A DNA stretch of 64,000 nucleotides from Streptomyces guryensis (GTDB taxonomy: Bacteria; Actinomycetota; Actinomycetes; Streptomycetales; Streptomycetaceae). Shown in pieces: positions 1-9,817 of the stretch. Each line of letters opens with the position of its first letter. Positions within the stretch are counted from its first letter, which is position 1. The stretch spans positions 124,001-188,000 of the forward strand of contig NZ_JAJSBI010000003.1 in the NCBI RefSeq assembly GCF_021261325.1, in the 5' to 3' direction. The translations under genes were made by a program, and so were the position numbers. Below the pieces are notes generated by a model. That model was not told the DNA's origin and did no database searches. It worked only from the letters and a program-made list of their open reading frames with translations.

Positions 1-640
1 CGACGTTCAGCGCGGCCGTCGTCGTGGTCCTGCCGGACTGGTGCACGGCCCGCACGGCGACGGTGTGGGTGCCCAGGGCGAGGGTCGCGCCGACCGAGGT
101 GGACGTGCCGGAGGCGGTGGCGGCGACCTTGCCGTCCACCAGCAGCTCGAACCTGGAGATCAGCGAACCCGGCGTGGTCGTCAGGTCGACCTCGAGCCCC
201 TTGGGCAGGCCCGAGCCGGTGGAGCCGTCCTTGTGGACGACCTGGACCTGGACGCCGTCGGAGGGGCCGACCCACAGCGGCTCGGACGCGCCGCGTGCGT
301 CGGCGCCCGCCTCCGGGTCCTGAAGGGGGTCGACGTCCGCCTCCAGGTCCTTCCAGGCGGTCCACTCACCGGTCGCGCTGCTGCGGGTTCGCACCTGGGC
401 CGCGCCGTGCAGCCGCTTGGTCGCCCCCGTCCAGGAGACACCCAGCATCGAGAACTGCCTCGTCTCCGTGCGCGGCAGCTCCCGTCTGCCGCTCGCCGTG
501 CTCTTCAGGGCCAGGTCGTAGACCCGCACCGGTCGCTTGGCCTGTCCGTGGTGGGAGGACGGGCTGGCGACGGCGTACGTCACCACGCCCCCGCCTCCCA
601 GTACCACCGCGCCGAGCGTGACCCACGCCCGTCGTCTCAT
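1..640 (-). CDS. secreted peptidoglycan-recognition/amidase-type protein, N-terminal part (runs off the window)
   Basis: The reading frame is open from an ATG at 640 to the window edge, so only about the first 213 residues are present. It starts with MRRRAWVTLGAVVLGGGG, a positively charged stretch followed by a hydrophobic segment, which reads as a signal peptide or membrane anchor. Further on are FSMLGVSWTG, a TRSSATGEWTAW stretch and EPLWVGPSDGVQV, the pattern I know from the N-terminal half of Streptomyces peptidoglycan-recognition/N-acetylmuramoyl-L-alanine amidase-like proteins. The next part looks Ig-like. The amidase domain itself would lie outside the window, so the enzymatic role is inferred. 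A GGAG ribosome site lies just before the ATG. The promoter region would fall inside the truncated ATPase next door. Confidence 0.6.
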   Translation of the reverse strand, partial: MRRRAWVTLGAVVLGGGGVVTYAVASPSSHHGQAKRPVRVYDLALKSTASGRRELPRTETRQFSMLGVSWTGATKRLHGAAQVRTRSSATGEWTAWKDLEADVDPLQDPEAGADARGASEPLWVGPSDGVQVQVVHKDGSTGSGLPKGLEVDLTTTPGSLISRFELLVDGKVAATASGTSTSVGATLALGTHTVAVRAVHQSGRTTTTAALNV

Positions 641-675
641 GCTCCGAGCGGGTCCGTGGCCTGTACGTCACAGCG

Positions 676-1989
676 GTGCGGGAGGAGGGGCGGCTGCCCG
701 CGATCCAGCGGTTCAGCGACGCGGTCGCCGCCCACGCCGGTCTCAGGCCAGGGAGCCTGCGTCTGACCGATTGGCGTGACGTCCTCTCCAACGCCCTCGA
801 TGTGACCGCCCGTTCGTCCCACCCGCTCTTGGTGATCGACGAGTTGCCGTACTTGCTTCAGCACTCGCCTGAAATCCCGGGGCTGCTGCAACAGCTTTAC
901 GACGAACGCCAGCGGGGTGCCCGGTCCGGTGCCGGGCCGGGGCCGCGGCTGATCCTCTGTGGATCGGCGATGAGCGTCATGCACGAACTGCTTTCGGGGA
1001 CCAAGCCGCTACGAGGACGCGCCGTTGTCGATCTACGGCTGGGTGCCTTCGACTACCGGGAGAGCCGGGCCTTCTGGCAGATCACCGACCCGCTGACCGC
1101 GCTGAAGGTGCACGCGGTCCTGGGCGGAGCTCCTGGCTACCGGCCGGTGGCTGCTCGGCCGCATCCGGACGACGGCTTCGACAGTTGGCTCGCCCGGACG
1201 CTGCTGGACCCGGGGCGGGCGGTGTACTCGCGTACCGAGACCGAGTACCTGCTGCGTGAGGACCCGAGGATCACGCAGCACACGCTGTACTACGACATCC
1301 TCACCGCGATCGCGAACGGGGCCACCACACCCAGCAAGATCGGGGCCGCCCTGGAGCGCCAGCGCAACGCCGTCGCTCACCCGCTCGGAGTGCTCGAATC
1401 CACCGGCTACATCCGGCGGGAACAGGACATCCTCCGCTCCAGGCACCCCGTCATTACCCTCGCCGACCCCGTCATCCGCTTCAACCAGCTCGTCACCCTC
1501 CCGCAGGCCGCCGCCGTGGAGCAGGGCTTCGCCGAGCAGGTGTGGCAGCAGGCCGCTCCGACCTTCAACTCCAGGATTCTCGGGCCGCACTTCGAGGATC
1601 TGGCCCGCGACTTCACGCGTCGTTTCGCCCACACCCTGCTGCCCAGTGGACTGCCCGGCCCTGTCGGCACCACCGAGGTTGCTGACCAGGCCGCCCGGAC
1701 GAAGCACGAGGTCGATGTCATCGCCCTGGCCGCAGGCGAGCGCCCGCAGGCTCCCCGCGCGAGGATCGCGCTGCTGGGCGAGGCCAAGGCGACGGCCGCC
1801 CGCCGGGGCACCGGTGACCTGGAGCGACTGGAACGTATTCGTGGTCTGCTCGCAGATCAGGGGTACGACACCGATGCCACCACTCTGGCTCTGTACTCCC
1901 TGCACGGCTTCTATCCCGACCTGGTCGAACTGGCCGACCATCGTGACGATCTTCTCCTGGTCGACCTGGCCACCCTGTACGGCAGCTGA
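676..1989 (+). pseudogene. 5'-truncated archaeal-type ATPase (DUF234/ATPase_2-like), Walker A lost
   Basis: The 437-residue frame resembles the middle and end of the ATPase_2/DUF234-type proteins: a Walker B-like LLVIDELPYLL at residues 51-61, an LCGSAMSVM sensor-type motif near residue 95, a winged-helix part (TPSKIGAAL) and a DUF234-like nuclease end (EVDVIAL, GEAKAT). Family members are usually about 450-500 residues and begin with a GRRRVGKT-like P-loop. Here the frame is closed by a TGA at 619 and only SERVRGLYVTA precedes the GTG, so the P-loop is missing. The loss lies at the start codon of the divergent gene ending at 640, so a deletion or recombination probably joined the two. A shortened product might still be made, but it could not bind ATP in the usual way. 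Confidence 0.65.
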
Positions 1990-2626
1990 CACCAAGGGGC
2001 GCCAGTCTCTGAACGAGGCGAGCGCGGGTGCCTGCCGGCGGGGCGCGTGCCGAAGCCATGCGAGCCACCGGTGCAGTTGGCTCCGCACGCCGCATTCCTC
2101 TCTGGCCTGCAGCGATGACTTTCCGAGCCGCACGTAGTGGCACCCCGCTGCCAGGCAATGGGATTTCGCCGGGTCAGCGGTCACCGGCGGGAGACGGAGG
2201 GCTGTCCGACCAGGTGACAAGGTTTCCTGCTCGCGCACCTGGGGCGTTGCCAAAGCCGGCCGGTGGCGGCCGCACCGTCAGATATCGGAGTCAACTGACC
2301 GGGTTCCGTGCATCGCCCCAGGTCAGAGTCCCAAAACCGAAGCAACGGCCGGGGCCGCCACCCCCCACAGGAGAGGCCCCGGCCGTCGCGCGGTCGGGCC
2401 GCGCGGCGGCCCGTACTCTCTACAGCGCCGTGAGTGCGGTATCTGTCACACCCCGGGTACGGCGCGCACCTTCGCAAGGTGGTTGCATGGGGTACGGACA
2501 TGGACGAGCAGCGGTTTCAGGTCGTAACGTGCCTTTCGCGCCGGGCGCGGAAGACGAATGACCATCGCAGACCATCGCAACGATCGGCGGCCTGGACGCC
2601 GCGACCATCGAACGAGGAACCATCGG
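1990..2626. other. intergenic region without a recognisable gene
   Basis: No frame here shows a convincing protein; the open frames are low-complexity Arg/Pro/Ala shadows. The region holds the hairpin at 2345-2386 and the leader of the sigma factor gene. A short frame from about 2488 ends with TGA overlapping an ATG at 2558, which could act as a leader peptide if the sigma factor started there, but nothing else supports it. The part next to the truncated ATPase may be scar sequence. Confidence 0.5.
2345..2386. terminator. GC-rich hairpin, probable terminator
   Basis: Positions 2345-2356 (ACGGCCGGGGCC) pair perfectly with 2375-2386 around an 18-base loop. It lies between the truncated ATPase and the sigma factor gene and could end transcription from the left. 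Confidence 0.5.
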
Positions 2627-3289
2627 GTGCTGGGGGACGACGCGGAGCTGACCGCCGCGGTGCTTGCGGCACAGGACGGGAACGAGACCGCGTTCCGGAC
2701 TGTGTACCGAGCCGTGCATCCGCGGCTGCTCGGCTACGTCCGCACGCTCGTCGGCGATCCGGACGCCGAGGACGTCGCGTCCGAGGCCTGGCTGCAGATC
2801 GCCCGTGATCTGGACCGGTTCAGCGGCGACGCGGACCGCTTCCGCGGCTGGGCCGCCCGGATAGCCCGCAACCGGGCGCTGGACCACATACGGATGCGCG
2901 GCCGCCGCCCCGCGATCGGCGGCGACGAGACGGAACTGACCGGCCGGGCCGCCGAGTCCGACACCGCCGGCGAGGCCATGGAGTCCCTGGCCACCGACCA
3001 CACGCTCTCGCTGATCGCCCGGCTGCCGCAGGACCAGGCCGAGGCCGTCGTGCTGCGCGTGGTCGTGGGCCTCGACGCCAAGACCGCCGCCGAGACGCTC
3101 GGCAAGCGCCCGGGTGCCGTACGCACTGCGGCGCACCGCGGTCTGAAGCGGCTCGCGGAACTGCTCGGCGAGGATCCGGAATCGACTGTCGGGCTGGACG
3201 GGCTGCCGCCCCAGAGGGAACCGCGCGGCCGCGCGGTGACGTCCGCGAGTGTGACGCAAAGCGTTGCGCGGACGCAGAAGGACATGTGA
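2627..3289 (+). CDS. ECF-type RNA polymerase sigma factor
   Basis: This sigma-70 family factor would direct RNA polymerase to a small promoter set. Region 2 is visible as FRTVYRAVHPRLLGYVRTLV followed by DAEDVASEAWLQIARDL, then FRGWAARIARNRALDHIR (region 2.3/2.4). Region 4 is LIARLPQDQAEAVVLRVVVG with the helix-turn-helix AAETLGKRPGAVRTAAHRGL. I chose GTG at 2627 because GAGGAA lies 7 bases upstream and family homology begins there; ATG at 2558 would add 23 charged residues. The TGA overlaps the ATG of the next gene, so the two are translationally coupled. The partner may be its membrane regulator. Confidence 0.85.
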   Translation: MLGDDAELTAAVLAAQDGNETAFRTVYRAVHPRLLGYVRTLVGDPDAEDVASEAWLQIARDLDRFSGDADRFRGWAARIARNRALDHIRMRGRRPAIGGDETELTGRAAESDTAGEAMESLATDHTLSLIARLPQDQAEAVVLRVVVGLDAKTAAETLGKRPGAVRTAAHRGLKRLAELLGEDPESTVGLDGLPPQREPRGRAVTSASVTQSVARTQKDM

Positions 3290-4362
3290 TGGCCGACGAG
3301 CGCTGTGCCTTTCCGGGGGACGCGGAGCCCTCCAGCGGCTCCGCCGGGGGCCGGCCCCCCGGCCGGTGGCTGGACCGCGAAACGGCGGAACTCCTGCTGC
3401 GCGGAGAGTCACTCGAAACGGTCGACGCCGCCTCCCGCGACCAGGCCGAACGGCTCGCGAAGACCCTCGACGGGCTGATCGTCGAGTCCCCGCCGAGCGC
3501 CGAACTCCCCGGTGAGGCCGCCGCCCTGGCCGCCTTTCGCGCGGCCCGGTCCGGCGCGCGCGCCGAGCAGGCCGCCGCCGGCCGCAACCGTGCCGGGGAC
3601 TCCGACGCCGGGCTCGTCCGCATCGGAGGCTCCGCCCCGGACCCCGGGCGCTCCCGCTGGGGCCGGCCCGCGCGCTTCGGGCTGACGGCCGTACTGGCCG
3701 CCGGCATGGTCGGCGGTGTCGCGTTCGCGGCGACGACCGGAGTGCTCCCGACGCCGTTCGGCCACAACGAGCCCGGCCCCGGCCCCGTCGCCTCCGTCTC
3801 GGCGGCCGCGAGCCCCGACCGCCCGTTCGTGTCGCCCTCGCAGAACAGCGCCCTGGGCGACCAGACCCCCGACGGTTCCACTTCCCCTTCCACCGGCCCG
3901 ACGACCCCGAACGGCTCGACGGGCGGCGGCTCCTCGACCGAGCCCGGCTCCGGCTCCGACGAGGAGCGGGCCGCCGGCGGCGCTTGGTGGCTGGGGGCCC
4001 CGTCGGCCTGCCGCGACATGCGCGACGGCAGGGAACTCACCGCCGACCGCAGGCGGGCCCTGGAGGGCGCGGCGGGCGGCTCCGGCCCGGCCCGCGTCCG
4101 CAAGTACTGCAAGGTCGTCCTCGCCGGCACCGACGGCACGTCCCGCAGCGACGGCGACAAGGGCGGCGGCCGGGGCAGGGGCGGCCAGGGCGACCAGAAC
4201 GGCAAAGGCGGCGGCCAGGGGAACCAGGGCGGTGACGGCGACGGCCACCACATAGCCCCCGGCAGCCCCGCCATCACACCGTCCCCCCTCCCGAGCCTCC
4301 TGCCGAGGCAGCTGGTCCCGACGCCGCACCGGTCCCCGAAGCCGCCCCACAGCACCCTCTGA
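3289..4362 (+). CDS. single-pass membrane protein coupled to the ECF sigma factor
   Basis: The 357-residue protein has an N-terminal soluble part of about 125 residues (WLDRETAELLLRGESLETVD), one membrane helix near residues 126-145 (FGLTAVLAAGMVGGVAFAA), and an outer segment rich in Ser, Thr, Pro and Gly with a Gly/Gln/Asn-rich stretch near residues 288-320. Its start overlaps the sigma stop by one base, so it probably modulates the sigma factor. However, no HxxxCxxC zinc motif of the classic ZAS anti-sigma domain is visible. The SACRDMRDG and VRKYCKVV motifs carry two cysteines that could form an extracellular disulfide. The function is inferred from position and topology only. Confidence 0.75.
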   Translation: MADERCAFPGDAEPSSGSAGGRPPGRWLDRETAELLLRGESLETVDAASRDQAERLAKTLDGLIVESPPSAELPGEAAALAAFRAARSGARAEQAAAGRNRAGDSDAGLVRIGGSAPDPGRSRWGRPARFGLTAVLAAGMVGGVAFAATTGVLPTPFGHNEPGPGPVASVSAAASPDRPFVSPSQNSALGDQTPDGSTSPSTGPTTPNGSTGGGSSTEPGSGSDEERAAGGAWWLGAPSACRDMRDGRELTADRRRALEGAAGGSGPARVRKYCKVVLAGTDGTSRSDGDKGGGRGRGGQGDQNGKGGGQGNQGGDGDGHHIAPGSPAITPSPLPSLLPRQLVPTPHRSPKPPHSTL

Positions 4363-4571
4363 CCTGCGGTTTTGCAGCTCCGAAAATTATCTTTGCGCCG
4401 CCAGTAACGTTTTCGGCCCCACCCACGCAGTACTGAGTGAGCCGACTGGTCATCGGCCGTCGCACAGAGCCGGGGTTCCCCCCGTACCCACGGCTCGTGC
4501 ATCGGCGCGGGCGGGACACGTTCCCCCGGTTCCGCCCGCGCCCCACTCACTTCTTCTCCCGGTTCCGGGAC

Positions 4572-5408
4572 TCACCGGTACACGACGACCTTGTCGCCGT
4601 TGTCCACCTGCGCGTACAGACCGGCGATCGCCGTCTCGTCCCGGACGTTGACACAGCCGTGCGAGGCGCCGGCGTAACCGCGGGCCGCGAAGTCGTACGA
4701 GTAGTGCACGGCCTGGCCGCCGCTGAAGAACATGGCGTACGGCATGGACGAGTCGTAGAGCGTCGACCAGTGGTGACGGGACTTCCAGTACACGTGGAAG
4801 ACGCCCTCGCGGGTGGGCGTGCCCGTCGCGCCGAAGCGGACCGACATCGTCGACACCGTCCGCCCGTCGATCATCCAGCGCAGGGTGCGGCTCGTCTTGT
4901 CGATGCACAGCACCCGCCCGGTCAGACACCGCGGATCGGCCGGGCCGGCGCTCTGGCCGCCCATCAGATACAGCTCCCACTTCCCGGGCTCGTGCGTCAT
5001 CCCCAGCAGCCGCTGCCAGGTGGCGGTGTCCGTCTCCCCGGTCCTCGGCAGCCCGCGCTTGCCCTGGAACCCCCTGACCGCGTCCTCGGTCAGGTCGTCG
5101 TACGTCCCGGTCGGGCCGTCGTGGAGCCAGGCGACCTGACGCAGCCGGGCCTGGAGTTCGCGCACGTCGTCGCCGAAGTCGCCGCGGGACCACAGGACGG
5201 CGGGGCCGGCCGTGGAGGTGGAGGGGGACGGGCTCGGCCTGCCGTCGGAGCCGGAGCCGGGCTCGCCGGAGGACGCCTTGCTGTCCGGCAGCCGGATGTG
5301 CACGGGCGAGTGCCCCTTGCCGTCCGTGCCCTGCACGGTGCAGCCGCACACGGTGACCAGGGCCGCCAGTGCCGCCGCGGCGGCGATCGATCTCCCCATG
5401 CCCGTCAT
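4572..5408 (-). CDS. L,D-transpeptidase (YkuD) lipoprotein with peptidoglycan-binding domain
   Basis: It should make 3-3 cross-links or attach proteins in peptidoglycan outside the membrane. The N-terminus (MTGMGRSIAAAAALAALVTV followed by CGC) is a signal peptide with a plausible lipobox VCGC. A PG_binding_1 domain follows (VRELQARLRQVAWL, GFQGKRGLPRTGE). The YkuD core ends in HYSYDFAARGYAGASHGCVN with the catalytic His and Cys in SHGCVNVRD. A GTG at 5435 would add nine residues but has no ribosome site, so ATG at 5408 is preferred. It converges with the sigma/membrane-protein pair and is divergent from the mutase gene. Confidence 0.85.
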   Translation of the reverse strand: MTGMGRSIAAAAALAALVTVCGCTVQGTDGKGHSPVHIRLPDSKASSGEPGSGSDGRPSPSPSTSTAGPAVLWSRGDFGDDVRELQARLRQVAWLHDGPTGTYDDLTEDAVRGFQGKRGLPRTGETDTATWQRLLGMTHEPGKWELYLMGGQSAGPADPRCLTGRVLCIDKTSRTLRWMIDGRTVSTMSVRFGATGTPTREGVFHVYWKSRHHWSTLYDSSMPYAMFFSGGQAVHYSYDFAARGYAGASHGCVNVRDETAIAGLYAQVDNGDKVVVYR

Positions 5409-5608
5409 ACGCACTGCGACCCCCGTCGTCCTCACCGGTGGAACCGATAGACCCGCGTGTCACCTGAGATGCTGCCCGCGGATGACGGGTCGCGAACGGC
5501 GGGGCATGGTTGTGACGGAGACCGCAAAACCGCTGTGAGGAAGCTCCCAGCGTGCTCCCCTCCACCGACTGCACGCACCCCGCTACAGTCCGCAGGAGGG
5601 TCGGTCTG

Positions 5609-5620
5609 TACTGGCCAGTA
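5609..5620. promoter_or_regulatory. palindrome TACTGGCCAGTA in the mutase leader
   Basis: A perfect 12-bp palindrome 22 bases before the mutase ATG, overlapping where a promoter or leader would be. The form resembles TetR-family operators, but the regulator is unknown. Confidence 0.4.
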
Positions 5621-5642
5621 ACTCAGCGGGAGGCATCACACC

Positions 5643-7241
5643 ATGGCGCGCGAGTCGGGCAGTGCTCGATTTACTGAGAGTGGACTGCCCATCGAACCGG
5701 TCTACGGGCCTGAGGACCTTGCGGGCTGGGACCCGGCGGAGAAGCTGGGCGAGCCCGGCCGGTACCCCTTCACCCGCGGTGTCTACCCGTCGATGTACAC
5801 GGGCCGCCCCTGGACGATGCGCCAGTACGCCGGTTTCGGCACGGCGACGGAGTCCAACGCCCGCTACAAGCAGCTGATCGCCAACGGCACGATGGGTCTG
5901 TCGGTCGCCTTCGACCTGCCGACCCAGATGGGCCACGACTCCGACGCCGCGATCGCGCACGGCGAGGTCGGCAAGGTCGGCGTGGCGATCGACTCCGTCG
6001 AGGACATGCGGGTGCTGTTCGGCGGGATCCCGCTGGACAAGGTCTCGACGTCGATGACGATCAACGCCCCGGCGGCCCTGCTGCTGCTCATGTACCAGCT
6101 GGTCGGTGAGGAGCAGGGCGTGAGCGCCGACAAGCTGACCGGCACGATCCAGAACGACGTGCTGAAGGAGTACATCGCGCGGGGCACGTACATCTTCCCG
6201 CCGAAGCCCTCCCTCCGGCTGATCGCCGACATCTTCAAGTACTGCAGGGCCGAGATCCCGAAGTGGAACACGATCTCGATCTCCGGCTACCACATGGCGG
6301 AGGCGGGTGCCTCGCCCGCTCAGGAGATCGCCTTCACGCTGGCCGACGGCATCGAGTACGTCCGTACGGCGGTCGCCGCCGGTATGGACGTCGACGACTT
6401 CGCACCGCGTCTCTCCTTCTTCTTCGTGGCCCGTACGACGATCCTCGAAGAGGTCGCCAAGTTCCGTGCGGCCAGGCGTATCTGGGCCCGCGTGATGAAG
6501 GAGGAGTTCGGCGCGAAGAACCCGAAGTCGCTGATGCTGCGCTTCCACACGCAGACGGCGGGGGTCCAGCTGACGGCCCAGCAGCCGGAGGTGAACCTGG
6601 TCCGGGTCGCCGTCCAGGGCCTCGGCGCGGTCCTCGGCGGCACGCAGTCGCTGCACACGAACTCCTTCGACGAGGCGATCGCGCTGCCGACCGACAAGTC
6701 CGCGCGGCTGGCCCTGCGTACCCAGCAGGTGCTGGCCTACGAGACCGACGTGACGGCGACCGTCGACCCCTTCGCGGGCAGTTACGTCGTCGAGAAGATG
6801 ACCGACGAGGTGGAGGCGGCCGCCGTCGAGCTGATGGCCAAGGTGGAGGAGATGGGCGGCGCGGTCAACGCGATCGAGCACGGCTTCCAGAAGTCCGAGA
6901 TCGAGCGCAGCGCCTACCGCATCGCCCAGGAGACCGACTCCGGCGAGCGGGTCGTGGTCGGCGTCAACCGCTTCCAGCTGGACGAGGAGGAGCCCTACGA
7001 GCCGCTCCGCGTCGACCCGGCCATCGAGGCCCAGCAGGGGGAACGCCTGGCGAAGCTGCGCGCGCAGCGGGACCAGCCGGCGGTGGACGCCGCCCTGGCG
7101 GCCCTGAAGAAGGCGGCGGAGGGCGAGGACAACGTCCTCTATCCCATGAAGGACGCGCTGCGGGCGCGGGCGACGGTGGGCGAGGTGTGCAACGCGCTGC
7201 GGGAGGTCTGGGGGACGTATGTCCCGTCGGACGCGTTCTGA
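5643..7241 (+). CDS. methylmalonyl-CoA mutase, large catalytic subunit without B12 domain
   Basis: The 532-residue protein is the TIM-barrel part of the adenosylcobalamin-dependent acyl-CoA mutases, which interconvert methylmalonyl-CoA and succinyl-CoA. Motifs seen: [31 protein letters not shown] with the Tyr that marks methylmalonyl over isobutyryl mutases, [10 protein letters not shown], then [13 protein letters not shown] with the substrate-binding Arg, and [14 protein letters not shown]. No DxHxxG cobalamin-binding domain follows, so a separate small B12 subunit must be encoded elsewhere. GGGAGG lies about 8 bases before the ATG. Substrate could also be a related acyl-CoA such as ethylmalonyl-CoA. 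Confidence 0.85.
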
Positions 7242-7347
7242 GCCGGCGCTCGCGGTCCGTTGACCGTCTGACGGCTGCGCCGTGGCTGGCCGCGACCACG
7301 CGACGGAGCCGCATACCGATACCGCGATGGCATCCCCTGAGCAGGGA

Positions 7348-7499: not shown

Positions 7500-8831
7500 C
7501 TAGCGCTGCACAGCCCTCCGCAGCGCCCGAGCCCGCCGCACAACCCTCCGTGCCGTGGAGTTCCGCGGAATGAACGCCAGCCGCTCCGGCAGCCCCCCCG
7601 GCAGACCCAGCGCGGTGAGGCGCTTGCGCCTGAAGTACCGCTTGGTGCGCACGGACAGATGCTCGGAGAGATGACGTTCCGCAGCCGCCCGCAGGGACGG
7701 GTAGATCTGCGGCTGCATCGTGTAGCTGAGCGTGTCGAGCAGACCGTCCAGGGTGCTCGCGGGCAGCGTCTTCTCGCCCTTGCCGCGCTCCAGGTCCGGC
7801 AGCAGCGCGTCGGCGAGGACGACCGGCACCCGGTTGCTGTTCTGGTACGGCGTGAGCCCGCCCAGCAGCGGTGCCGTACCGATGCGGGCGACCGGGAGGC
7901 CGTAGAACGCGGACGCGGTGAAGAGGGCCGTGGAGAAGCAGCCGACGACCAGGGCGGGCGGCGACTGCTCGAACAGCACCTCGGCGAGGACCGGCATGTC
8001 GAGGACGGTGAGGTCGACGCCCAGCTTCCCGGCCTCGGTCTCCAGGGCGCGGCTGTAGCGGGCCGGCGCGGTGGGGTGCGGCTTGAAGACGATCGAGCGG
8101 TGCCCGCGCTCGACCGCCCCGCGCATCATCCGTACGTGCAGGCCCTCCTCCTCCTCGGGGGAGAGGATGCCCAGTGCGGACAGGTACTGGCCGAGCAGCA
8201 GCGCCGAGTTCTCGGGCAGGACGGGCAGGTCCCGTACGGAGGAGGTGAGTTCGCCCATCACCTTCAGGAACGCCTCGGTCGGCACCAGCTCCGCCGGGAC
8301 GTCGAACTCGGTCAGCAACCGCGGGGTCAGGTCCGGCACCAGGTCCAGGTGGAGCAGCCGCCGCACGCGTGTCCCGACCAGCGGGTCGATCTTGTTGCGG
8401 GTGGGGCCGTAGCTCATCAGGCCGTCGGCGTAGACGTGCACGGGCGCGTCGGTGAACAGCTGCGCCACCGTCAGCGCCGGGGCGACCTGGATGGACTCCA
8501 CGACCAGCTCCACCCGGTCGTCGCCCAGGCCCCAGAGCAGACGCAGATAGCGCTCGAAGAGCGGGATGTCGTCCTGGCGCGGGGTCCAGGCGCCCGGGTG
8601 GAAGGGGCGGATGGCCTCGTTCCAGGACAGGACCTCGTCGAAGTGGTCGCGCAGCGGTTCGAAGCCCGGCATCTCGTCGACGGGCACCGTCGTCTCCGGG
8701 GTCGCCGAGTTGTTGAAGACCAGCAGCAGGCTGCGGTCCTCGTCCTCGAAGCAGTCCGAGTCCAGCGCGGCGGCCAGGGTGGCGGCGCCGTACAGGGTCG
8801 AGACGCAGTAGATGCGGGTGGTACGGGGCAT
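7500..8831 (-). CDS. polysialyltransferase-like glycosyltransferase (GT-B fold)
   Basis: The 443-residue protein shows the three motifs typical of bacterial sialyltransferases with GT-B fold: an acidic-Gly motif (VYADGLMSYGP, near residue 140), HP (VFKPHPTAP) and Ser-Thr (GCFSTALFTA). It most resembles the alpha-2,8-polysialyltransferase-type family. The tail is very basic (RRVVRRARALRRAVQR), which suits membrane attachment at the cytoplasmic face. The ATG overlaps the TGA of the upstream GT2 gene, so the two form one operon. With the ulosonate synthase and CMP-transferase across the divergent promoter, a role in building a cell-wall ulosonic-acid polymer is likely; the exact linkage is not known. 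Confidence 0.7.
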   Translation of the reverse strand: MPRTTRIYCVSTLYGAATLAAALDSDCFEDEDRSLLLVFNNSATPETTVPVDEMPGFEPLRDHFDEVLSWNEAIRPFHPGAWTPRQDDIPLFERYLRLLWGLGDDRVELVVESIQVAPALTVAQLFTDAPVHVYADGLMSYGPTRNKIDPLVGTRVRRLLHLDLVPDLTPRLLTEFDVPAELVPTEAFLKVMGELTSSVRDLPVLPENSALLLGQYLSALGILSPEEEEGLHVRMMRGAVERGHRSIVFKPHPTAPARYSRALETEAGKLGVDLTVLDMPVLAEVLFEQSPPALVVGCFSTALFTASAFYGLPVARIGTAPLLGGLTPYQNSNRVPVVLADALLPDLERGKGEKTLPASTLDGLLDTLSYTMQPQIYPSLRAAAERHLSEHLSVRTKRYFRRKRLTALGLPGGLPERLAFIPRNSTARRVVRRARALRRAVQR

Positions 8832-9817
8832 CAGGCAGCCGCCTTCGCTGTCGTGATCCTGCGCCGCAGTCGCCGCAGCTTGGAGGAGCGGTGCAGGTCC
8901 ATCGTCTCGAGTACGTCGCCGAGCATGTCCTGCGGCAGGCGCTGGATGGCGGCCGCGCTGCGGGCCCGCAGCTGCCGGTACACGGACGGCTCCCACTTGT
9001 CCTCGTCCGAGACGTGGTGGGCGATGATCGCGCAGTATGTGCGCACCGCCTTCGGCAGCAGCCGGTCCGCGTCCGGATCCTTGGCCGTCTCCTCGATGAC
9101 CTGGTCGAAGGCGCGGATGAAGTCGAGCTGGCGGACGTCGCCGATCTGCGTCAGGGAGGACGCCACCCCGCGCCGGTAGAAGACGCCGAGCAGGCTCACC
9201 ACGGCGAACGACTCCGCCTCGCGGTGCAGCTTCCAGATCCACGGCCGGTCCTCGGCCGTGCGCAGCCCGTCGGTGAAGTGCAGCAGGCCCTGGTCGAGGA
9301 GCCGGCGGTGGTAGGCGCCCGCCCAGGCGAAGGCGTAGTCCACGGAGGTCGAACGGTCGGCGGGCAGGATCGCCGCGCGCGGGTTCAGTGCCTCCCAGCG
9401 GCGCCCGATGGGGACCCTGCTCACGCTGCGCGCGCGGGCGGTCGCCTGCACATGGTCGGTGCGCACGAAGTCGACGCCCAACCCCTCGATGGCCGCGACC
9501 AGTTCGGCGAAGTAGCCGGGAGCCAGCCAGTCGTCGCCGTCCAGGAACGTCAGGTACTCGCCCTGCGCCGCGTCCAGTCCGGTGTTGCGGGCGGTGGCGA
9601 GTCCCCCGTTCTTCTCATGGCGGATATACCGCACCTGCGCCACGTCGGAGAGTTCCTCGGCCGCGCGTTCGAGAATCGCCGGAGTTTCGTCCTTCGAATG
9701 GTCGTCGACCAGTACGAACTCGAAATCCCGTTGTGCGTTCAGGCGGAGGCTTTTGAGGGTGTCCGGGGCGTATTGCTGCACGTTGTAGAACGGCACGATC
9801 ACGGAAAGCTTTGGCAC
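8831..9817 (-). CDS. family 2 glycosyltransferase
   Basis: The 328-residue protein has the GT-A nucleotide-binding start KLSVIVPFYN, then FVLVDDHSKDETP, GGLATARNTGLDAAQGEYL and the metal-binding FLDGDDWL; EDRPWIWK may supply the catalytic acidic residue. No membrane helix is seen. Its GTG start faces the ulosonate gene set, and its stop overlaps the start of the polysialyltransferase-like gene. It probably adds a sugar during assembly of the surface polymer. Donor and acceptor cannot be told from sequence. Confidence 0.85.
   Translation of the reverse strand: MPKLSVIVPFYNVQQYAPDTLKSLRLNAQRDFEFVLVDDHSKDETPAILERAAEELSDVAQVRYIRHEKNGGLATARNTGLDAAQGEYLTFLDGDDWLAPGYFAELVAAIEGLGVDFVRTDHVQATARARSVSRVPIGRRWEALNPRAAILPADRSTSVDYAFAWAGAYHRRLLDQGLLHFTDGLRTAEDRPWIWKLHREAESFAVVSLLGVFYRRGVASSLTQIGDVRQLDFIRAFDQVIEETAKDPDADRLLPKAVRTYCAIIAHHVSDEDKWEPSVYRQLRARSAAAIQRLPQDMLGDVLETMDLHRSSKLRRLRRRITTAKAAA

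Follow-up and report, generated by a model that had tools for sequence, protein, structure and literature searches.

A recent deletion very probably beheaded two divergent genes, for an ATPase and a secreted amidase, in Streptomyces guryensis

A stretch of 64,000 nucleotides from Streptomyces guryensis was analyzed (the window; the source genome comprises 10.5 Mb in 78 contigs). Here a recent deletion very probably beheaded two divergent neighbors, a gene encoding a mobile, defense-type ATPase and a gene for a secreted cell-wall enzyme, and both are most likely dying remnants and not a new working arrangement. The deletion would have taken the 5' end of the secreted amidase gene, the intergenic region, and the upstream region of the ATPase gene together with a palindrome, the start codon and the P-loop. 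The ends were presumably sealed by end joining at a microhomology of 2 bp. The features are listed in Table 1.

Table 1. Features at and around the proposed deletion joint (window positions).
Feature	Position	Strand	Remarks
5' part of the divergent secreted-protein gene	1..640	(-)	Runs beyond the window, 425 aa in total; starts at an internal ATG; first 13 native codons gone; no amidase domain
Scar of a second, in-frame deletion	176..188	(-)	Amidase_2 domain lost; 915 bp relative to L137
Predicted deletion joint	643..651	(.)	2 bp TC at 643-644 common to both parents
ATPase remnant	645..1989	(+)	Frame open from 676, with GTG as a possible start; native start, P-loop and operator-like site missing
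Features kept by the ATPase remnant			Walker B at 826-843; winged-helix region; C-terminal E-V-D ... G-E-A-K stretch at 1708-1788
Right end of the inserted ATPase-bearing unit	1990..2335	(+)	Missing from empty-site relatives
Host copy of the unit-flanking direct repeat	2336..2364	(+)	Right copy in relatives; left copy absent from the window
Hairpin	2345..2386	(+)	12-bp stem (2345-2356 / 2375-2386); contains the repeat; unit insertion site
ECF sigma factor gene (sigma2)	2558..3289	(+)	Frame intact; downstream of the insertion site

For the ATPase, 437 aa are encoded at 676-1989 (+), and the frame is open further up to position 640; between 676 and 640 it contains no ATG, GTG or TTG. A first-pass annotation had described an ATPase that keeps Walker B and lacks the P-loop, and this description was correct. 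The Walker B motif LLVIDE is present and was invariant in an alignment of 25 orthologues, and no P-loop (Walker A) is encoded in the window copy. Named genomes were scanned with peptide patterns of the window ATPase, which yielded 46 loci. The whole or nearly the whole matching part is held by 39 of them (L061-L099), and the remaining seven (L100-L106) are fragments. The named records with the closest ATPase belong to Streptomyces. In 38 of the 39 long loci the P-loop GRRR[H/Y]GKS lies directly upstream of the joint position, and full-length orthologues with an intact P-loop are the rule; the lone exception is L073, whose 5' end is broken and which has GRRRHGKL instead. An ancestral short ATPase was rejected on these counts, and no conserved short orthologue without P-loop was present among the 39 loci. 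The P-loop form occurs in records of Streptomyces, Nonomuraea and Actinacidiphila and also in a paralogue within the same genome. This paralogue (C11) is full-length and has 70% DNA identity to the window ATPase, and the idea that the genome holds this ATPase a second time in intact form was therefore rejected. Other broken or fragmentary copies exist (L073, L100-L106, L140 8671-8843, L152 12691-12770), so loss of this ATPase is not rare. A tRNA-like sequence was seen by eye upstream of the ATPase in the stretch shown of L079, L083 and L098. Genome G107, a single contig of 12.1 Mb, has two equally similar copies in opposite orientation near both ends (C1:206778 and C1:11917675), perhaps in terminal inverted repeats.

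Next to the P-loop, the expression signals are affected. A conserved near-palindrome (core GTCGAAGTAGACTTAGAC) occurs in the 120 bp that precede the ATPase start in 35 of the 39 loci, with at most 3 mismatches. It sits 35-42 bp before the assumed start (60 bp in L061), regardless of the flanking DNA, and in its consensus, as typed, 34 of 40 bases are self-complementary. It is possibly an operator for the winged helix of the ATPase itself; the sub-threshold matches to a MarR-like winged helix would suggest self-regulation. The near-palindrome had no match in the window at up to 3 mismatches, and a looser pattern had none in the own genome at up to 2. The operator-like site, the start codon and the native upstream region are all missing from the remnant, and no evident ribosome-binding sequence was seen by eye before the GTG at 676. 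Because an ATP-binding loop and evident expression signals are lacking, the remnant would most likely be a silent young pseudogene.

The position of the joint was determined from both sides. The ATPase homology had been noted to begin near the ATG of the neighbor, and indeed it begins at 643, at a distance of three bases from this ATG (640). The BLASTN match to the long orthologue loci L061-L099 started at 642-652 in 39 of 39 cases, and at 643 in most of them. A close ATPase was present in 18 of 391 other genomes of the genus, with matches beginning at 642-647. The homology of the secreted gene to its closer relatives ended mostly at 644-651; one gapped alignment reached 660, and weaker ones ended earlier. 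The alignments thus place the joint at about 643-651, with an agreement far beyond chance. A match across the joint was found in none of the 391 other genomes (392 were searched including the own one, and two candidate places were scored per genome), so that the comparison of the junction in relatives, which had been proposed as a check, was in favor of a deletion. A long repeat at the joint was not present in the parents shown. A simple deletion predicts that the chromosome resumes in the same order to the right of the remnant, and this was seen at 2335/2336 in all five relatives compared.

A layout similar to the state before the deletion is found in Streptomyces hyaluromycini NBRC 110483 (L064), in which both genes are entire and divergent. 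A 767-aa amidase is encoded at 4842-7145 (-), and the ATPase is in frame from about 7812 (+). Window 173-644 matches L064 6632-7110, and window 643-2038 matches 7968-9363 at 92.6%. In L064 the counterpart of window 644 is 7110 and that of window 643 is 7968; both parents read TC at this place, and 859 bp are missing in the window, which agrees with the earlier proposal that a deletion joined the two genes. Other relatives, e.g., G232 (L137), have two genes in the space from the secreted gene to the hairpin, one for an ECF sigma factor and one probably for an anti-sigma factor; the latter is named by its position and had no Pfam or NCBIfam match. This sigma gene is also present in Streptomyces sp. 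NRRL S-646 (L065), which is the closest relative by the chromosomal sequence that follows the unit downstream (92.6% over window 2305-7246); in L064 and L139 the sigma gene had no match. By the S. hyaluromycini layout the deletion would have had a size of 859 bp. If the ancestor had the ECF sigma/anti-sigma-like pair, the size would have been about 3.4 kb or more, a figure obtained by adding 426 bp of the unit in L064 to the 2945 bp that separate the secreted gene and the hairpin in L137. A genome with the joint plus an intermediate state was not found. Further downstream, a mutase-like gene at window 5682-7241 has a second copy in the genome (G000 C17:126495-128053, about 95% identity), around which there was no further match to a 36-kb query within the 30 kb retrieved.

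With its 425 codons, the divergent gene extends leftward from position 640, where its ATG lies, and leaves the window. This ATG had been taken for the start codon of the neighbor. In the relatives L064 and L137 the secreted protein starts 13 codons before the residue that matches the window ATG, and the ATG at 640 was therefore rejected as the native start. It is an internal codon of a truncated gene that lost its first 13 codons and its upstream region; a similar DNA block lies upstream of the secreted gene in 9 of 9 other loci. An in-frame stop is present at 670, and no alternative start lies between this stop and 640. The sequence GGAG is just one base away from the ATG. The N-terminus of the product, basic plus hydrophobic, was judged by eye to be kept.

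The secreted gene shows a further loss. The L064 protein matched Amidase_2 (PF01510) with an E value of 2.9e-16, and the window gene had no match at E values up to 1; the gap relative to L137 is 915 bp, or 305 codons. Among 98 genomes with a match (own included), a single match over both gene halves was seen only in the own genome. Many of the other matching genomes match one half only, and the longest overrun past the point of the gap was 27 bases (G007). A second, in-frame deletion thus removed the catalytic amidase domain and left the scar near 176-188. With one outgroup (L064), 15 synonymous and 9 nonsynonymous codon changes were specific for the window gene, and 19 and 9 for L137. With its catalytic domain lost in a separate event, the secreted gene is most likely the second pseudogene.

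The ATPase remnant was compared with its orthologues for signs of decay. Of the residue positions without variation among 38 orthologues (L061-L099 without L087), it keeps 239 of 239, and only two residues are unique to it, one of them four codons from the joint. With six outgroups, 21-29 synonymous and 6-11 nonsynonymous codon changes were found only in the window, and 13-22 and 5-8, respectively, in the sister L061; with five of the six outgroups there were more changes on the window side. The pairwise omega of the remnant was 0.148 versus L061, an only slightly raised value, and 0.131, 0.087 and 0.090 versus the next three relatives, and the constraint may thus be slightly relaxed. The neutral share of the window branch is at most 6-19%, assuming an omega of 0.1 before the event (five distinct counts from the six outgroups). 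Disabling mutations after the event were not detected, as the frame is open and the invariant residues are kept, and such an absence of decay is expected if the event is very young. These data point either to a young deletion or to continued constraint on the fragment, and youth is favored because the expression signals are gone. The long frame had been explained by a recent event or by a protein that is kept; the first half of this explanation gained support from the invariant residues, and nothing favors the second half over it. Against pure decay stands the mildly suspicious fact that both deletions left open frames, and against a pseudogene that the 437 codons are fully open with little or no relaxed constraint, as would also be seen for a kept protein.

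If the protein is kept, translation of the shortened ATPase would begin at the GTG at 676, and the product would serve as a regulator or a dominant-negative partner of the intact paralogue C11. The open frame, the full set of invariant residues, the two unique residues and the presence of a full-length paralogue at 70% DNA identity are in line with this, and yet a young event explains the conservation equally well, given the small neutral share of the branch under the assumed omega. In addition, the operator-like site and the start region are gone, no ribosome-binding sequence is evident by eye before the GTG, and another conserved form without P-loop does not exist among the 39 long loci. This function for the fragment is very unlikely. 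On the other side of the joint, a new antisense promoter in the ATPase remnant might drive the secreted gene from the ATG at 640, and the first-pass annotation had indeed assumed a promoter within the ATPase coding sequence. The intact frame of 425 codons, its N-terminus as judged by eye and the lack of an alternative start before the stop at 670 would fit. However, a sigma-70-like promoter was not found in 560-1300, which is a weak test, as shuffled sequences also give about none; a single base separates the GGAG from the ATG, and with the catalytic domain gone there is less to express. The assumption of a promoter thus found no support, and a rewired secreted gene is very unlikely.

The joint could also be an error of assembly, as the genome is a draft of 78 contigs with an estimated contamination of 3%. 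It lies, however, inside a contig of 547 kb, the sole other match in the genome is with 70% identity too distant for a collapse, and the parents shown have no long repeat at this place, so that an artifact is extremely improbable. It is hardly conceivable that the ATPase was short from the outset and that the other copies acquired the P-loop segment, or that the ATPase was inserted directly into the 5' end of the secreted gene. Nothing beyond the window sequence itself speaks for these versions. The distribution of the P-loop form over three genera and the paralogue contradicts the former, and the latter is contradicted by the right boundary of the unit, which is the usual insertion site at 2336 and not the secreted gene. 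A recent deletion that left two broken genes is thus clearly preferred.

The ATPase itself seems to have arrived from elsewhere. The nearest ATPase, that of S. fuscichromogenes (L061), is 94.0% identical, and the chromosome next to it has 66-85% identity to the window (mostly 79-85%). The ATPase of NRRL S-646 is only 87.9% identical, though the identity downstream is 92.6%. The identities of ATPase and flanks in these two cases show the pattern of horizontal transfer, by which the ATPase was acquired. In the relatives without ATPase at this place (L029, L137, L138, L139) the match to the window resumes at 2336, and in L140, which keeps 173 bp of the ATPase, at 2335. Position 2336 begins the repeat that forms half of the hairpin. 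The hairpin was found downstream of the ATPase in 16 loci, and a second repeat copy was present upstream in 8 and absent in 8 of them; loci with an insertion at the hairpin include L062, L064, L065, L067, L071, L073, L078 and L081. The upstream copies are about 20-30 bp long, as estimated by eye. Among 23 loci without the hairpin in the stretch examined, an upstream copy occurs in one (L068); L072, counted there, has a variant core downstream. The empty site in L029 has one repeat copy. Two units comprise little beyond the ATPase (about 1.9 kb in L067 and 1.7 kb in L078). Others carry cargo between the ATPase and the hairpin, i.e., an OLD-like TOPRIM nuclease (L077), an iHD-CE/HSP90-associated protein (L025), or a protein with AAA_16 and TPR (L064). 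The hairpin upstream of the ECF sigma gene is thus a probable integration hotspot for ATPase-bearing, defense-type units.

The unit ends were also inspected by eye; common to them are repeats like TTGGTCACGCG and, flanking the core, CAGGTCAG in inverted form. Of 315 genomes of the genus, 20 have such a left end matched over 50 bases, in several cases together with the ATPase. A similar left end was seen by eye before NucS-like genes in five loci (L181, L185, L186, L187, L191), and the two NucS-like genes that were scanned matched DUF5655 above and NucS_C below the cut-off. L181 and L193 also carry a cytosine methylase and a TraG-like coupling protein. At L153 12943-13212 and L064 7502-7561 a right end, a core and a left end are arranged head to tail, as if the units were able to sit in tandem. 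By eye, an integrase was recognized neither near the unit ends, including these left ends, nor in the cargo regions of nine loci (ORFs of at least 120 aa with high GC3, few of them scanned with Pfam), and G143, G242, G019 and G314 had no PF00589 or PF07508 match within the stretches retrieved. Only distant ATPase matches were found in phage records (4 of 50,697 records, below 27% identity). A match was present in 128 plasmid records, and the only close one (93.1%) is the 11.85-Mb Nonomuraea gerenzanensis record, which is probably a chromosome.

A tentative and rather doubtful reading is that these are small, cassette-like Streptomyces units without an integrase of their own, which carry one or a few defense-type genes each between attP-like ends, insert at the hairpin and at other sites, can form tandems and use a recombinase in trans. 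The attP-like ends would consist of the inverted repeat around the core of 20-30 bp; the cargo would include the ATPase with its palindromic operator, the OLD-like nuclease, iHD-CE, the AAA-TPR protein and the NucS-like proteins; and the window unit would have lost its left end. Open-licence PMC papers on this locus, the ATPase family or the insertion site were not found by title or abstract start.

The deletion offers a clean snapshot of gene death, with intact parents, a joint at base level and hardly any decay, and the order of loss can be read, i.e., the signals and the catalytic core go first and the frame goes later. For annotation it is a warning, as the secreted protein of 425 aa and the ATP-binding protein of 437 aa encoded here are likely both broken. 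The event itself is ordinary but cleanly documented, and the units at the insertion site are the more interesting lead. Uncharacterized defense-type genes in Streptomyces can be sought at this site before the ECF sigma gene, and the units raise the question of how they move, apparently without an integrase of their own.

The ATPase was compared with known families. The window copy had no Pfam match at an E value of 0.001 and obtained no name from Pfam or NCBIfam. The full-length orthologue matches the archaeal-type AAA+ family ATPase_2 (PF01637) over residues 12-196 with an E value of 7e-5, and missed the gathering score (23.2 versus 33.2 bits). PABY2304 of P. abyssi (PDB 2qen) came first both in the fold comparison with the predicted model (Foldseek E 3e-7) and in the sequence-profile search of the PDB (E 0.0057); the predicted model has a low overall confidence (pLDDT 60.7) and is poor in the middle. 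In contrast to ATPase_2, the window copy has no P-loop, with Walker B present, and its family has in addition the MarR-like winged helix (with sub-threshold matches) and a C-terminal part for which no Pfam model reaches its cut-off. The E-V-D ... G-E-A-K stretch in this part may resemble a PD-(D/E)XK motif; a fold match that confirms a nuclease was not found in the predicted model. Mycobacterial IniR is described as a signal-transduction ATPase of 818 aa with a DNA-binding domain, an AAA+ domain likened to archaeal SSO1545, a MalT-like domain and a C-terminal SdiA-like domain (PMC5760070). By this description it would share with the window ATPase family the AAA+ domain likened to an archaeal ATPase and the DNA-binding domain, and would differ from it in the length of 818 aa and in the MalT-like and SdiA-like domains.

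A candidate defense family is also similar. The AAA+ part matches PDLC04984 of the PADLOC candidate defense family PDC-S27 with an E value of 2e-13, the match being limited to profile positions 4-210 of 474, and the genes between ATPase and hairpin in relatives are likewise of defense type. As to the event itself, young bacterial pseudogenes arise by microhomology deletions. The case described here is of this kind in its fused divergent genes, lost 5' ends, open frame and intact orthologues in relatives. Unlike that kind, two neighbors were apparently beheaded at once, and a further, in-frame deletion cost one of them its catalytic domain.
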